Shown here: positions 18,641 through 29,951 of the stretch, piece after piece | How the letters are laid out: each line of letters opens with the position of its first letter | Numbering within the stretch: the first letter of the stretch is position 1 | Notes under the pieces: model-generated | Told to the model about the DNA's origin: nothing | What the model saw: only the letters and a program-made list of their open reading frames with translations | Databases searched by the model: none | From: Apiotrichum sp. Y4204 | Lineage: Eukaryota > Basidiomycota > Tremellomycetes > Trichosporonales > Trichosporonaceae | Length of the DNA stretch: 64,000 bases | Reading direction: 5' to 3' | Assembly: GCA_025531455.1 (NCBI GenBank) | Contig: JAMYHL010000022.1 | Coordinates: 734,438 to 798,437, forward strand | Made by a program: the position numbers and the translations under genes

Positions 18641-20812
18641 TTAGTCAACCTCCTCCATGGAGCCACCGGCCTCCTCGAGAGCCGGGGTCGAGTCGGCGGC
18701 AGCGGGCTCGGGGGCACCGACGTCGTCGGCGTCGATGGACAGGCCAAGCGAGATCATGCGGTTGATGCGCGAGGCGAAGTCCTGGGGGTTGTTGAGGGTG
18801 AAGCCCGAGGTGAGGAGGGCAGTCTCGAAGAGGAGGACGGTGAGGTCGCGGACGGTCTTGTCCGACTTGTCCTCGGCGACCTTTGTGCGGAGCTCCTTGA
18901 TGATCGGGTGGTGGGGGTTGAGCTCGAGGGTCTTCTTCGAGGCCATGTACGAGGACATGGACGAGTCACGGAGGGCCTGGGCCTTCATGATACGCTCCAT
19001 GTTGGACGACCAGCCGAACTGGCCAGTGACGAGAACACAGGGCGAGTCGTAGATACGGTTGGAGACGACAACCTTCTCGACCTTGTCACCGAGAGTCTCC
19101 TTGATGGCGGAGCAGAGGCCCTCGAACTCCTTGGCCTCCTTCTCACGCTCCTCCTTCTCCTCGGGGGTCTCCTCGAGCTCGAGGCCCTCCTTGGAGACAC
19201 AGACGAGCTTCTTGCCGTCGAACTCCTTGAGCTGGGTAACGGCGTACTCGTCAATGGGGTCGACAAGGAGAAGAACCTCGAAGCCCTTCTTCTTGAGGAC
19301 CTCAAGGAAGGGAGAGTCCTTGACGGCCTCGAGGGACTCGCCGGTGAGGTAGTAGATCGACTTCTGGACCTCGGGCATGCGGGTGATGTAGTCCTTGAGC
19401 GAGGTCATCTCGTCAACCGACTTGGTCGAGTGGAAGCGGAGGAACTCGGCGAGCTTGTTGCGGTTGGCAGCGTCCTCGTGGATACCGAGCTTGATGTTCT
19501 TGCCGAAGGCGGCGTAGAACTTGTCAAAGGCCTCCTTGTCCTCGGCGATCTCGGAGATGAGCTCCATGGTCTTCTTGACAAGGTTCTTGCGGATGACCTT
19601 GAGAATCTTGTTCTGCTGGAGGGTCTCACGCGAGATGTTGAGGGGAAGGTCCTCCGAGTCGACGACACCGACAACGAAGTTGAGGTACTCGGGCATAAGC
19701 TCGTCGTTGTCCTCAGTGATGAAGACACGGCGGACGTAGAGCTTGATGTTGTGGCGCTTCTTCTTGGTCTCGAAGAGGTCGAAGGGAGCACGCTTGGGGA
19801 TGTAGAGGATAGCCTTGAACTCGAGCTGGCCCTCAACCGAGAAGTGCTTGACGGCAAGGTCGTCCTCCCAGTCGTTGGAGATGGACTTGTAGAAGGCAGA
19901 GTACTCCTCCTTGGTGACGTCGGCGGGGTTACGGGTCCAGATGGGCTTCTGCTTGTTGAGCTCCTCGTTCTCGGTGGTCGTCTCCTTGACCATCTTCATC
20001 TTCTTCTTCTTCGAAGACTCCTCGTCCTCAACCTCCTCAATCTTCGAGTCGGAGTCCTTGACCTCCTCGTCCTCGGGAACCTCCTTCTCGACCTCCTTGG
20101 TGACGACAAGCTGGATGGGGTACGAGATGAACTCGGAGTGCTTCTTGACGATCTCACGGATGCGCTTCTCCTCGAGGAACTCCTTGAGGTCCTCCTTGAT
20201 GAAGAGCTTCATCGAAGTACCACGGCCGAGGCGGGGGCCAGTGGTGTCCTCGGTGATGGTGAAGGTGCCGCCAGCGGCCGACTCCCAGATGTACTGCTCG
20301 TCGTCGTTGTGCTTGGTGGTGACCTGGACCTTCTCGGCAACGAGGTAGGACGAGTAGAAACCGACACCGAACTGACCGATCATCGAGATGTCAGCACCCG
20401 ACGAGAGGGCCTCCATGAAGGTCTTGGTGCCCGAGTTGGCGATGGTACCAAGGTTGTTGACGAGGTCGGCCTTGGTCATACCGATACCAGTGTCGCGGAT
20501 GGTGAGGGTGCCCTCCTCCTTGTTAGGAATGATGCGGATGTAGAGCTCCTTCTCGGTGTCGAGGACGGACGGGTCCGAGATGGACTGGAAGCGGAGCTTG
20601 TCAAGAGCATCTGTACGGTGTTAGTAATCATGTACGATTTGATTTCTCCATCGAGCTGGAGACTCGTTCTGAGACTCACCGGAAGAGTTCGAGATCAGTT
20701 CACGAAGGAAAATCTCCTTATTGCTGTAGAAGGTGTTGATGATAAGGTCGAGCAGCTGGGAGATCTCGGCCTGGAAGCCGTAGGTCTCGGTTTTGGGAGC
20801 AGCGGAAGACAT
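18641..20812 (-). CDS. HSP90: Cytosolic heat-shock protein Hsp90
   Basis: This is an ATP-dependent chaperone of kinases, steroid-receptor-like clients and transcription factors. Two minus-strand exons, 20812-20680 and 20610-18641, give 700 aa. The N-terminal ATPase domain has [35 protein letters not shown], the nucleotide-site [19 protein letters not shown] and [18 protein letters not shown] charged linker ([12 protein letters not shown]) precedes the middle domain, with [20 protein letters not shown] and the catalytic-loop [19 protein letters not shown]. The protein ends in MEEVD, the TPR co-chaperone docking signal of cytosolic Hsp90. The antisense strand is open for most of the gene purely because of codon bias. 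The promoter has a heat-shock element (see 21266). Confidence 0.97.
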
Positions 20813-22618: not shown

Positions 22619-25600
22619 ATGGTCGAGTTTGAGCCGACAGAGCACCCGCACCGCCGATGTAGGTCGATCTCCTTTGGCATGGACTAACCTCGGAGTCAAC
22701 CCCCTACTGGGGCGCCATGTGCTGGTTTCCCCGCACCGCACGAAGCGTCCTTGGAACGTGAGTACGAATTGAGGCGGACGGCGTGGAGCAGGTTTGGCCT
22801 GTTGGTACGCCGGACGTCGGCCAGCAAGAGCTATGCCCAGAATCGCCGCTGACATCTGCAGGGACAGACCGAAAAGCCGTTCAAGGAGAGGCTTCCGGCC
22901 TACGACGAGAAGTGCTACCTTTGCCCGGGCAACACCCGCATGGGTGGCATGGTGAACCCGCAGTACGAGGAAACCTATGTGGGTACAGTGGATCGTGCAG
23001 CGGAGCGGCACACTGATTGCAGATCTTCAAAAATGACTTCCCCGCACTGCTCGAGGATCCTCTTCCCGTGCTTGACGGCCCGGCTCCGGCAAAGGACGCG
23101 TCCTCGACGTCGATCGACACGCTGTTTGCGAGCGAGCCGACCCGCGGGCGCTGCTCCGTCGTCTGCTTCCACCCCCGCCACGACCTCACTCTCGCGCGCA
23201 TGTCCGAGCCCGAGATTGTCGCCGTCGTCAATAAGTGGCGCGACGTGTACCTCGCCGAGGCCGACTTCCTCCGCCAATCGAACAGCCCCGACGGCTATGT
23301 CCAGATCTTCGAGGTACGTCCGCTTGAGCATCATGGTTGAAGCTGACGGCAGAACCGCGGTGCCATGATGGGCGCGTCCGCTCCTCACCCGCACGGACAA
23401 GTGTGGTCGCTCTCCTACGTCCCCGACGAGCCGGCCACCGAGCTCGCCAACCTCGCGGCGTACGCCAAAACCCACGGCCACAAGGGTGCGAACGGCGTCG
23501 CGAACGGCGTCGCTAATGGGTCTTGCCCTGCGCCGTGCCGTGGCGACGGCGAGCCATGCATGTTGTGCACCTACGCGCACACAGAGGTGACGAAGGGCGA
23601 GCGCGTCGTCGCGATTGACGAGGAGAGCGGCTGGGTCGCGCTCGTGCCCTTCTGGGCGGTGTGGCCGTTCGAGACCATGCTGCTGCCGTACAAGCGCCAC
23701 ATCCCTTCCCTCGCACAGATGACGCCGGCCGAGGACGAGGGCCTCGCACGCGTCCTCAAGACCCTGCTGGTCAAGTACGACAACCTCTTCAAAGCGCCGT
23801 TCCCCTACTCGATGGGCCTGCACCAGGCGCCCCTCCCGCCGACCAACCCCGACTCGGACCCGGCTCACACACACTTCCACTTCTACCCGCCGCTTCTGCG
23901 CAGTGCGAGCGTGCGCAAGTTCCTCGTCGGCTTTGAGATGCTCGCCGAGGCCCAGCGCGACCTCACTGCTGAACAGGCCGCTGAACGTCTCCGAAACCTT
24001 GACGACATGCACTACCACGACATTGAGAGTCGTGCCGCCTCGCGAGCGGTGTCCCGCGCCGTCTCTCCCGTCCCTGGAGCAATGCGGCCACTCGCACAGG
24101 CACAAAAGGCCAACACGGACCTCCCGGTGCCCAAGTTTAAGGATCTCGCGGACATCTACCCCGCATCTACGGTCCCGCGGGAGGCGAAGCGCTGGGATGA
24201 CCTCGCCCAGCAGTTTGTGTCGCTGTACGGCGCGCCGCCGAGCCACATTGTGCGTGCTCCCGGCCGTGTCAACATCCTTGGCGAGCACGTCGACTACTCC
24301 CTCTTCCCCGTGCTCCCTGCTGCCATTGAGCAGGACATGGTGATTGCTCTCAAGACGACTGCGTCTCCGCGCGTCCGGGTCTCGAACACCTCCAAGTCGT
24401 TCAAGCCGGCAGAGTTCACCTTGTCGTACAAGGGGTCTGCCTGGGATGCGGGTCTTATCCCGCCAAATGAGGGCGGAGGATGGGAGAACTACCTCAAGGT
24501 CGCGATCCTCGAGTGCCTTGAGCGCTACTTCCCTGATTGTAAACCCAAGTCTGGCTCCAACGGCCCCGTTGGTCTCGACATCCTTATCACGGGCAACGTG
24601 CCCCCTGGTGCTGGTCTTAGCGTAAGTTTCTGGTCTGCAACTCAGCTCACACTTAGTCATCCGCTGCGTTTGTGGTGTCTGGCGTGTTGTCTTTCCTCGT
24701 GGCCAATGGCCTCGTCGACGACGTCATGAAGGGCGATGTCGTCGCTATGGCCATTGCCAGCGAACACCGCATGGGTCTGCGTACCGGCGGGATGGACCAG
24801 GCCGCCTCAGCGCTCTCCCTAAAGGGCTCGCTGCTGCACATTGCCTTCCACCCGAACCTCGAGACCAACCCCCTCCCGCTCCCCGACGGCCTCGCAGTCG
24901 TTATCACCAACTCGCTCGCACCACACTCCCTCGCCGACTCTGCACCGGAACGGTACAACCTGCGCGTTGTGGAGGTTCTCTGTGCCTCCCGCCTTCTCCT
25001 CAAGGCATGGGGTGTCAACAGCCCCCGTACAACCGCGACGGGCAAGGACGCGCGCATATGGCTCAAGGAGGCGATTGACATGCTGGAGAAGCAGGGCTCC
25101 GAGGCGGAGCTCTACCAGCACGCGCTGGACGACCTTCCGCGCGTCCTCGGCCGCGACGGACACGACGTGAACGGCTGGACACGCGAGGAGATGGTCGCGG
25201 CGAGCGGGCTGACTCCGGAGACTTTCTCCGCCGCATACCTCGACTTCATCCCCGTCCGCGCGGACCGCTTTAAGCTCCTCCAGCGCGCAGAGCACACGTT
25301 TGCCGAGTCGCTCCGCGTCACGCGTTTCGTGGACATATGCCGTGCGAACCCTGCGAATGCCGGCGCCGAGCTCGGCGCGCTCATCAACGCGTCCCACGAG
25401 AGCCTCCGCGACCTCTTCGAGGCGACCGTCCCCGAGGTCGAGGAGCTGCGCAACATCTGCCTCAAGCACGGCGCACTGGGCGCACGCCAGACCGGCGGCG
25501 GGTGGGGCGGCGCAGTTATCTCGCTCCTCCCCGTCGCTGCTGTGCCTGCGTTCCTTGACGCCGTGAAGAAGGACTATGCGCCCTTCCGCGGACTCTCGGA

Positions 25601-25667
25601 ACAGGAGCTTGAGGAGGCCGCGTTCGCGACCCTCCCTGCTGTCGGCGCGGGCGTGTACACTGTCTAG
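22619..25667 (+). CDS. GAL7-GAL1: Bifunctional galactose-1-phosphate uridylyltransferase / galactokinase fusion
   Basis: A single continuous reading frame of 929 aa joins two consecutive Leloir enzymes. Exons are 22619-22658, 22696-22757, 22862-22978, 23023-23313, 23353-24621 and 24657-25667. Residues 1 to about 394 are a complete GALT: zinc-site CYLC (Cys52, Cys55), FHPRHDLTL, GASAPHPHGQVW with the nucleophile-bearing His-Pro-His at 182-184, and VPFWAVWPFETMLLP. A linker of about 35 residues, rich in RAVS-type repeats, follows. Residues from about 428 are a complete galactokinase (about 500 aa). It has APGRVNILGEHVDYS, the GHMP loop PPGAGLSSSAA spanning the last intron, RTGGMDQAASAL with the presumed catalytic Asp near 640, and GARQTGGGWGGAVISL. 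There is no stop, promoter-sized gap or splice site that would separate them. An internal ATG at 24082 just before the kinase domain may be a relic of its former start. The order (transferase then kinase) and function are inferred from motifs. Confidence 0.92.
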
Positions 25668-26303: not shown

Positions 26304-27127
26304 ATGAAGGCCAGTTCCCCACAACGCCTCCTCGATCCCGTCGACCCGCCGATCGTGCTGCATCGGGAGTACATCCGCGACACGCCGACGACGCTGGTGA
26401 TCAAGCAAAAGGTGTTCAACACCCGGGGCGTGAGTGGCAGCTTGACCTGCTTGTCACTGATTGTAGGACGACTTTATCATCTCGGACACGAACGGAAACG
26501 ACGTGCTGCGATGTATGAAGAAGGGCATAACGTCGTTCAAGGAGAAGAAAGGTGGGTCCATCAAGTCCTATCGTATCTGACGGCAGTCCTTGCGTCGATT
26601 GACCATGTGCCGCTGTACGCACTGAAGACCAAGCCGTGGACCATCAAGCACAAGACGCTCGTCGAGGACGCACAGGGCGAAATGGTGTTCAGCATCACCG
26701 AGCAGTGGTCGTGTAAGCTGGTCCGACTGTACTTCAGCTAACCCCAGGGGCGTCAAAGTTCCAGTGTACGGTCGACACACCGAGTGGTCCCGTACGCCTC
26801 ACCGGAACCCGGAAGCTATGGTCGTACGCTGTCCAGATTACGATGGACGACGGGACTGTTGTGGCGACTATTGCGCGGGAGTACTTTAGTGACACGCAAG
26901 GAATGTTGAAGAACCGCGAGACGGTGAGTTGGATGTTGTATTCGGTACCGAACGAAGAGACAGAGGGGTGGAAAGGAAGTTGTTCTACTCACCCTACCGT
27001 TCTCAAAGCTGACGGACAGTACTACGTCACAGTTGCTCCTGGCGTCGATCTGTCGCTTATGGCGATAATGTGTCTCTCGTACGACGACCTCCTCCGTGCC
27101 GAGGCCAGGAGACACTCGGCAAACTAG
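26304..27127 (+). CDS. LURP-one-related / tubby C-terminal-like protein
   Basis: Exons are 26304-26429, 26467-26551, 26587-26712, 26748-26923 and 27020-27127 (206 aa). The protein is close to a single LOR (DUF567) domain. A strand-rich barrel is suggested by TLVIKQKVFNTRG, then DDFIISDTNGNDVLRCMKKG, then PWTIKHKTLVEDAQGEMVFS. The end is the typical hydrophobic central helix segment YYVTVAPGVDLSLMAIMCLS. The family resembles phospholipid scramblases and tubby; its biochemical role in fungi is unknown. The last intron (96 nt) keeps the frame open, so unspliced mRNA would add 32 residues. Confidence 0.8.
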
Positions 27128-28047: not shown

Positions 28048-29951
28048 TTACATGTGCATTGCCGGGTTGCCAATCTTGAGCATGTTGTGGTTGCGGATAA
28101 ACGCGCCAAAGATGACCGCAAACGCGAGGGCAATGAACAGGGGGATGTACGAGGCAGAGATGGCCTCCAGGTACGCGCGGATGACACCGGGGCGGAGCTC
28201 CGGGGCGATCTGGTAGATCGCCATCGTAGATTGGCGGACTTGGGCAAATGGCGCTTCCGGGGCATACTTGGGCAAGAGCTTGTTGAGGTAGACGGACTGG
28301 ACAGTGTTGACAATACCGATACCGATAGCGGCGCCCGTGAGCTGGAAGAAGGACACAACACTGGTAGCCTGGGGAACGAGGTGTGGCCGGGTTGCGTACT
28401 CGGCCTGCGCGGCGAGGATGACGTTCTGGAAGGTGAGACCGATTCCGAAACCCGAAAGAATCTGGTAGCCGATAACTTTGGCGTTGGGCGTGGTCTCGCG
28501 GATGGTGTAAAGGAGACCGAAACCGACAGCCGCGATAGGAGGGCCGAAAATGAGGAACCAGTAGTAGCGACCAAACTTGGCGACGTAGCCACCCGAGACG
28601 AAGATTCCAACACAGGTGATGATCATGAAAGGAATGACGGAAATGCCACTCTTCTCGGGGGTTTGGCCACGCGCAGCCTGGTAGAAGAGGGGGAGCTGGT
28701 AGGTACCGCCCAGCATCGACATCATGAGCATGAAAATGGCGCCGGAGCAACCCAGGATGGTGCGGTTGCTGAGCAGCGAGTAGGGGATGAGGGCGTCGGC
28801 GTCGATGTAATATTCCCAGGCAAAGAAGGCAATCGTGAGGAGACCTCCCAAAGTGAAGAGCAGAATAATACGCCAGCTGCTCCAGCTGTACTCATTGCCA
28901 CCCCACTGGAGGGCGAGAAGGAGACAGGTGACGAACAGGAGGGCGAGAGCCGACCCGAGCCAGTCCATGCGCCTCAAGGTCGCGAGCCAGCCTGTAGGGA
29001 GATCGCGGTCGCCACTGCTGTCGGGCGCACGAGCAGGGAGGGCAAAGATGATCGCGGCAGCAGCGGCACCACCGGCGGGAAGGTTGATCCAGAAGCACCA
29101 GCGCCACGAGAGACGCTGAGTGAAGACACCACCAAGGAGTGGGCCGATGATCGAGGAGATGACAAAGACGAAGCCGAAGCCAGCCATGAAGGCGGCGCGC
29201 TTCTCGACACGAACGACCGCAGCAATGGTCGCGATGGTGGCGACGAACATGCCCGACGCGCCCATGCCCTGAATCGCGCGAGCAATAATAAGGAAGGTCA
29301 TCGAGTTGGCCAGCGCGCAGAGCAGCGAACCGAGTTCGAAGAAAAAGATGGCGCCGAGCAGCACGTACTTTGCCTTAAAGTACGTGAGCAGCTGGCCGAC
29401 GAGCATGATGAGACCGCATTGAGTGAGCTATAGTGTCAGTACGGCGTCGATCACTGTTCAACCCACGAAATAGGCAGTAACGATCCAGGCGACCTGCGAG
29501 AAACTGCAATCTTATCAGCATTGTTCACGAGATCCAACAGCGACGGCCGGGGCGATCGCCCGTAGTTGCGGTGGCGTTGTCATATACTCACGCTTTGAAC
29601 TCTGACACAATAACGGGAATGGCAGTGGATACGATGGACTGGTCAAGGGCAAACATCTGCAGCCGTCAGTCTCGGTCTCTGCCACCGTGTACCCACAAAT
29701 ACAGCAAGCATAAGGGAGAGGAACACAGCAGCCAGACGCGCGCCACTAAGGAAACCATCCTGCGGAGGACCGTCAGGAGCCACCTCCTGGGTTTCTGTGG
29801 TCGTGCTTGTCGGGATCGCCTTCTCGGCGTCCTCGACCTGCTCGGTATCCCGCTTGATCGACGACATGGACCCGTTCTTGGACGGTGTGGCCGTCAGTGT
29901 CATTCGGTCCACAGTGAGGGTCGATGGGTCGCTGAGCGCCGACTCCTTCAT
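28048..29951 (-). CDS. 14-TM MFS exporter, DHA2 drug:H+ antiporter type
   Basis: Minus-strand exons are 29951-29697, 29656-29592, 29503-29467 and 29427-28048 (578 aa). A hydrophilic N-terminus of about 65 residues leads into many hydrophobic helices. DHA2 landmarks are ALDQSIVSTAIPVI in helix 1, GQLLTYFKAKYVLLGAIFFF (motif A region), IQGMGASGMFVATIATIAAV, and motif C GFVFVISSIIGPLLGGVF followed by LSWRWCFWINLPAGG. Relatives export toxins, drugs or fungal metabolites from the plasma membrane or vacuole; the substrate here cannot be read. It stands alone with no neighbouring biosynthetic genes, which argues against a metabolite cluster. AP-1-like sites lie upstream (30323, 30485). Confidence 0.9.

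Follow-up and report, generated by a model that had tools for sequence, protein, structure and literature searches.

Gene structure and domain content

The stretch of Apiotrichum sp. Y4204 DNA analysed here (64 000 nt, hereafter the window) contains, at 22619..25667 on the forward strand, a single gene in which two Leloir enzymes, GALT and galactokinase (GALK), are fused. Its six exons give a spliced length of 2790 nt and encode 929 aa followed by a TAG stop codon, with a predicted mass of 101.3 kDa; the product is laid out as a complete GALT, a linker of 28 aa and a complete galactokinase, all within a single frame. Exon 1 (22619..22658) provides the start codon and is followed by exon 2 (22696..22757), by exon 3 (22862..22978), which carries the CxxC zinc site (22913-22924), and by exon 4 (23023..23313). 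Exon 5 (23353..24621) extends in an unbroken frame from the His-Pro-His motif of GALT, through the linker (residues 398-425; 24034..24117), into the N-terminal region of the kinase, with the remainder of the galactokinase and the stop codon residing in exon 6 (24657..25667). All of the introns are bounded by GT...AG and measure 35-104 nt, with donors of the GTRNGT type in 5/5.

Pfam matches cover both halves of the protein. The GALT half returns PF01087 (residues 3-194, 204 bits) and PF02744 (239-392, 193.8 bits), for which the curated cut-offs are 22.1 and 29.2, respectively, and the kinase half returns PF10509 (456-504, 70.6 bits), PF00288 (564-646, 46.5 bits) and PF08544 (827-900, 39.1 bits), each again above its curated cut-off. 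The zinc site of GALT reads CYLC (residues 52-55, with C52/C55) and H182-P183-H184 is present within SAPHPHGQ (residues 179-186; 23377..23400). Both the CxxC and the His-Pro-His elements align with E. coli GALT structures, and H184, the second His of SAPHPHGQ, aligns with a Gly position in structure 1gup. In the kinase half, the galactose-binding signature RAPGRVNILGEHVDY (residues 471-485; 24253..24297) is identified by Pfam, by motif and by alignment to yeast Gal1, with GEHVDY beginning at residue 480. The sequence PPGAGLSSSAA (24601..24668) is interrupted in the DNA by intron 5 (24622-24656), with GLSSSAA intact in the protein within residues 587-597, and TGGGWGGA lies towards the C-terminus (residues 872-879; 25491..25514). 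A motif scan and alignment to yeast Gal1 (2aj4) find GEHxDY, GLSSSAA, GMDQ and GGxWGG, which we take to be the catalytic motifs of galactokinase, all present. Amongst solved structures, the GALT half matches those of human and E. coli GALT, and the kinase half that of yeast Gal1.

The earlier note, made from the letters of the window alone, had described one six-exon frame containing all GALT motifs and then all galactokinase motifs with no stop between them, and this description is borne out by the gene model, Pfam and the motif scan. It had also named a termination site within the linker as a possible objection; the linker falls wholly within exon 5 and contains no stop.

Two further features of the gene were observed. 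A 12-bp repeat at 23488-23513 codes for an NG-rich insertion within the GALT half, the length of which varies among relatives. Additionally, an antisense open frame of 582 aa (22975-24723, reverse strand) crosses the fusion gene and is probably a side effect of GC-rich codon usage.

Constraint on the open frame

Exon 5, with a length of 1269 nt, was open in 0/2000 shuffles. The 84 nt linker is a short, GC-rich segment in which further frames are likewise open; because it stays open in 63 % of shuffles when taken alone, its openness in a single genome counts for little. Taken together with the homoeologue and the relatives of the gene, this openness becomes strong evidence.

The genome is 48.9 Mb in size and the region around the fusion gene is duplicated, with positions 7361-37163 of the window corresponding to a second contig, C112 (G000:C112:556100-585800), in five collinear blocks of 92.6-94.1 % DNA identity separated by short gaps. 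This duplication fits a hybrid or diploid genome, and such genomes are described, in the available parts of PMC7026411 and PMC12820176, for C. mucoides, C. cutaneum B3, one C. dermatis strain and two Trichosporon species. The homoeologue on C112 retains the fusion, with all six exon lengths identical and 0 internal stops. Identity between the two copies is 95.4 % over the coding sequence, with lower values for introns 1, 2 and 4 (79.5-88.5 %) and higher values for introns 3 and 5 (97-98 %).

Nei-Gojobori dN/dS between the copies is 0.048 for residues 1-394, with 8 non-synonymous changes, and 0.093 for residues 441-929, with 15. All 5 changes across the 28 linker codons are synonymous (binomial P 0.003), as are all 6 within residues 390-430 (P 0.0008). 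As changes within the linker are synonymous only, the linker is read as protein; both halves and the linker thus evolve as protein, with purifying selection acting on both halves. Chance openness of the linker, although it accounts for so large a share of shuffles when the window genome is taken alone, is disfavoured by this synonymous-only pattern and by the recurrence of the open junction elsewhere.

Fused and separate relatives

A database search with the whole protein, with scoring limited to the 7996 candidates that had the most words in common with it, returned 35 matches: 28 containing the kinase only, one containing GALT only and six with domains of both enzymes. These six are P0001, P0002 and P0022-P0025, the last four having the two enzymes in reverse order. 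P0001 (CcaverHIS002_0208780 of Cutaneotrichosporon cavernicola), which represents the nearest named relative among the matches listed, is a protein of 930 aa with 74 % identity over 100 % of its length, and it resembles the window protein in domain order and in possessing a linker of 28 aa. P0002 (jgi) crosses the same junction, with a sequence that is incomplete within GALT, and the best 120 of 8000 matches to the GALT half added P0094 and P0127, both of which also span this junction. The linkers are in frame in 6/6 sequences, at 28 aa for the window, its homoeologue and P0001, 31 aa for P0002, 40 aa for P0094 and 27 aa for P0127. According to the available part of PMC10568926, gene models for Cutaneotrichosporon, strain HIS002 included, were built with RNA-seq hints, which lends mild support to the joined gene of C. 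cavernicola being transcribed as one.

Elsewhere in the order the picture includes separate and doubtful genes. Vanrija albida has a separate GALT (P0036) and GALK (P0003), each with its own start codon and listed on contigs of unequal size. Trichosporon asahii has a separately annotated GALK (P0162) with its own N-terminal start, in a model whose middle looks mis-predicted, and no T. asahii GALT occurs in the best 120 of 8000 GALT-half matches. For C. oleaginosum, the annotated GALT P0037 (375 aa) falls inside the fused clade of the GALT tree. Compared with related sequences, it is missing an internal stretch and finishes in an unrelated tail; the gene model looks truncated, and as such the annotation may be faulty. 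Among the matches listed there is no kinase and no fused protein from C. oleaginosum, and likewise no fused protein from C. spelunceum, which is represented only by the divergent stand-alone GALT P0051. A similarly divergent stand-alone GALT, P0050, exists in C. oleaginosum; no counterpart of P0050 or P0051 was found in the Apiotrichum genome. Two further GALTs, P0097 and P0120, lie outside the fused group and end shortly past the conserved HY.

The apparent model errors amongst relatives, as exemplified by P0037, are what might favour the reading of the window gene as an artefact, that is, two genes wrongly merged by assembly or gene prediction. Against this, the same frame recurs on a second contig, in C. 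cavernicola, whose genome was assembled separately, and in three more database proteins, so that an artefact is strongly disfavoured and can be considered extremely improbable. The joined architecture, which the earlier note had proposed to look for in related genomes, is therefore found in P0001, P0002, P0094 and P0127; its worry over an assembly error is answered by the copies on C112 and in C. cavernicola, and its core proposal of a GALT–GALK fusion is upheld, each half being intact by Pfam and constrained by dN/dS against the homoeologue, and the fusion recurring in P0001.

The reverse-order proteins P0022-P0025 similarly join the two enzyme families in a single polypeptide, known only as a prediction. 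They differ from the window protein, however, in having the kinase N-terminal and the transferase C-terminal, P0025 being without the first part of GALT. These proteins are probably bacterial and probably represent a separate joining event. A search of bacterial genomes, in which all search patterns derived from the kinase part and the best 80 of 591 loci were considered, found both enzymes in one open frame in 0/80 cases, as did a repeat with motifs. Amongst these 80 loci, both genes lay on one strand in 67 (36 in the order GALT to GALK and 31 in the order GALK to GALT) and on opposite strands in three, with one gene only in the other 10. In the genomes of four of the 80 loci, one case had equal open-frame lengths for both matches, but with three stop codons between them, and 119 genomes of one bacterial order yielded two matches at E <= 1e-200, both with internal stop codons. 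A fungal precedent for joined Leloir enzymes is provided by yeast Gal10, a fusion of epimerase and mutarotase, although here it is two other activities that are joined.

Phylogeny and origin of the fusion

For the trees, 33 GALT and 35 GALK sequences were selected by hand from the matches. In both the GALT and the GALK tree, the six fused sequences cluster together with 100 % ultrafast bootstrap, and FastTree support for this group is 0.999 and 0.997 in the two trees. The group also takes in P0037 in the GALT tree and the fragment P0158 in the GALK tree. Its nearest outgroup differs between the two, being V. albida plus P0049 for GALT (84 %) and the fragments P0156 and P0161 for GALK (99 %). 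P0156 and P0161, as well as P0163-P0165, start inside the kinase, and so the junction lies beyond the part that they cover. A single fusion inside the Trichosporonales is the likely reading of these trees, and we infer that it arose once, in an ancestor of Apiotrichum sp. Y4204 and C. cavernicola.

With regard to how the two genes came to be joined, the tail of V. albida GALT contains SRVPSP, which is found again at the start of the linker in P0001 and P0002, whilst the N-terminus of V. albida GALK, minus its Met, resembles the end of the linker. Linker ends that resemble a GALT tail and a GALK N-terminus are what a head-to-tail joining would give, and loss of the stop between adjacent, co-oriented GAL7 and GAL1 genes is a plausible origin. 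For nine Tremellales pairs of GALT and GALK, a count made by eye and incomplete, the listed contig size is equal, which suggests that the members of each pair share a contig and does not imply adjacency; sizes are unequal for V. albida (as above), Naematelia encephala, Kockovaella imperatae, Calocera viscosa and Cryptococcus neoformans Bt63. In Cryptococcus, the available part of PMC8022950 describes GAL1, UGE2 and GAL7 clustered with a transporter, along with unclustered paralogues elsewhere. The same enzymes are there encoded by separate genes, whereas in Apiotrichum they are fused and galE homologues are located on other contigs.

Predicted structure and activity of the fused protein

The C. 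cavernicola protein was modelled using 40 aligned rows, which gave a mean pLDDT of 82.4 and two mostly well-folded domains. Values below 50 occur at residues 407-427, in the region matching the linker, at residues 25-38, 173-178, 217-234 and 359-378 of GALT, and at residues 588-592 of the kinase, and the linker is accordingly predicted to be disordered. With a pTM of 0.57, the arrangement of the domains in this model is not to be trusted. In a Foldseek comparison, one half of the model matches yeast Gal1/Gal3 and the other matches human and E. coli GALT, and the simplest reading would be that of two ordinary enzymes on a tether. On the sequence evidence, it is very probable that the gene specifies one polypeptide with two working Leloir enzymes, an N-terminal GALT and a C-terminal galactokinase, connected by a flexible tether of ~28 residues; we infer that both halves are active and that the mature protein is in one piece.

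A different outcome would be for the fused frame to yield two enzymes, via translation from M414, proteolysis of the linker or alternative splicing. The predicted disorder of the linker would suit cleavage, M414 lies within the linker just ahead of the kinase, and 43 GT-AG pairs of intron-like length surround the junction. Conversely, the linkers of P0001 and P0002 are without Met, and those of P0094 and P0127 each have one, at other positions, whilst the next Met of the window protein, M499, is already past the galactose-binding motif. As to splicing, the sole GTRNGT-type donor within exon 5, the type used by every modelled intron, is at 24250, in the kinase part; a hidden intron of the linker, which itself contains no such donor, is therefore improbable despite the 43 weaker pairs nearby. 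Since the coding sequence of the linker is, in addition, constrained, production of two enzymes is considered quite improbable.

A real fusion might also have seen one half adopt a new role, the kinase half becoming, for example, a Gal3-like sensor or an N-acetylgalactosamine kinase. Bit scores for the kinase half leave some room for this, with human N-acetylgalactosamine kinase (214) and yeast Gal3 (211) near to yeast Gal1 (230). The yeast Gal3-type sensor is without part of the GLSSSAA motif, however, and this type of residue loss is absent here, GLSSSAA being intact. Moreover, the kinase half clusters with annotated galactokinases of Tremellomycetes, and the exon-by-exon search of the genome gave no galactokinase beyond the fusion and its homoeologue that could supply the activity, making a change of role very improbable.

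With two ordinary enzymes on one chain, the kinase half would convert galactose and ATP to galactose-1-phosphate, which the GALT half would then use, together with UDP-glucose, to form UDP-galactose and glucose-1-phosphate. Known GALT enzymes are homodimers, and the working form is therefore probably a GALT dimer bearing two kinase domains. If the protein is uncleaved, the two enzymes would be held at a fixed 1:1 ratio. Channelling of galactose-1-phosphate between them is speculation. That the fusion is an adaptation, whereby GALT on the same molecule consumes galactose-1-phosphate by proximity within a GALT-dimer scaffold and so keeps this toxic intermediate low across the clade, is an idea that we regard as rather unlikely.

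Genomic surroundings and the source of both enzymes

Searches of the whole genome with PF01087 and PF10509, run exon by exon with only the best candidates being scored, found no GALT or GALK beyond the fusion and its homoeologue. The fusion is therefore probably the only source of both enzymes, and would thus probably be obligate in Apiotrichum sp. Y4204. Homologues of galE (UDP-galactose 4-epimerase) scored above cut-off on contigs C9, C159, C138 and C124. A test of the neighbouring genes identified an HSP90 gene (18641-20620, reverse strand) and an MFS/TRI12-type efflux pump (28048-29427, reverse strand), between which a small gene at 26305-27127 gave no Pfam match for its last open frame, the only one searched. 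A link to a GAL cluster was rejected on the location of the galE homologues on other contigs and on these two non-GAL neighbours. Checks of Rfam, of tRNAs and of contig ends found nothing.

Status in the literature and significance

No description of a GALT–GALK fusion was found in titles and abstract openings of the papers listed by searches of the open PMC literature, and no words beginning 'galact' occur in the available text of three Trichosporonales genome papers (PMC12820176, PMC7026411 and PMC10568926). As far as their available parts indicate, PMC3898844 deals with separate enzymes in combination, and in PMC11355724 reporters are driven from the GAL7 promoter, neither concerning a GALT–GALK fusion. 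The statement of the earlier note that no such fusion has been described in fungi consequently stands for this literature, but the protein as such is already deposited: the C. cavernicola sequence exists as a database entry only, as a 'hypothetical protein' at NCBI and under a UniRef name beginning 'Galactose-1-', with no fusion label seen. What is encoded here is thus a real, conserved and apparently unreported enzyme fusion, the parts of which are ordinary and the joining of which is unusual.

The interest of this fusion rests on its proposed metabolic logic. In galactosaemia, the toxic intermediate is galactose-1-phosphate, formed by the kinase and removed by the transferase, and how these two activities are balanced has been a question for many years. 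A natural and conserved fusion that would hold the pair at 1:1 lends itself to asking whether cells are protected by stoichiometry or by proximity, and might serve as a single-gene tool for galactose conversion. For the Trichosporonales themselves, it would constitute a case of Leloir genes passing from separate to physically joined.
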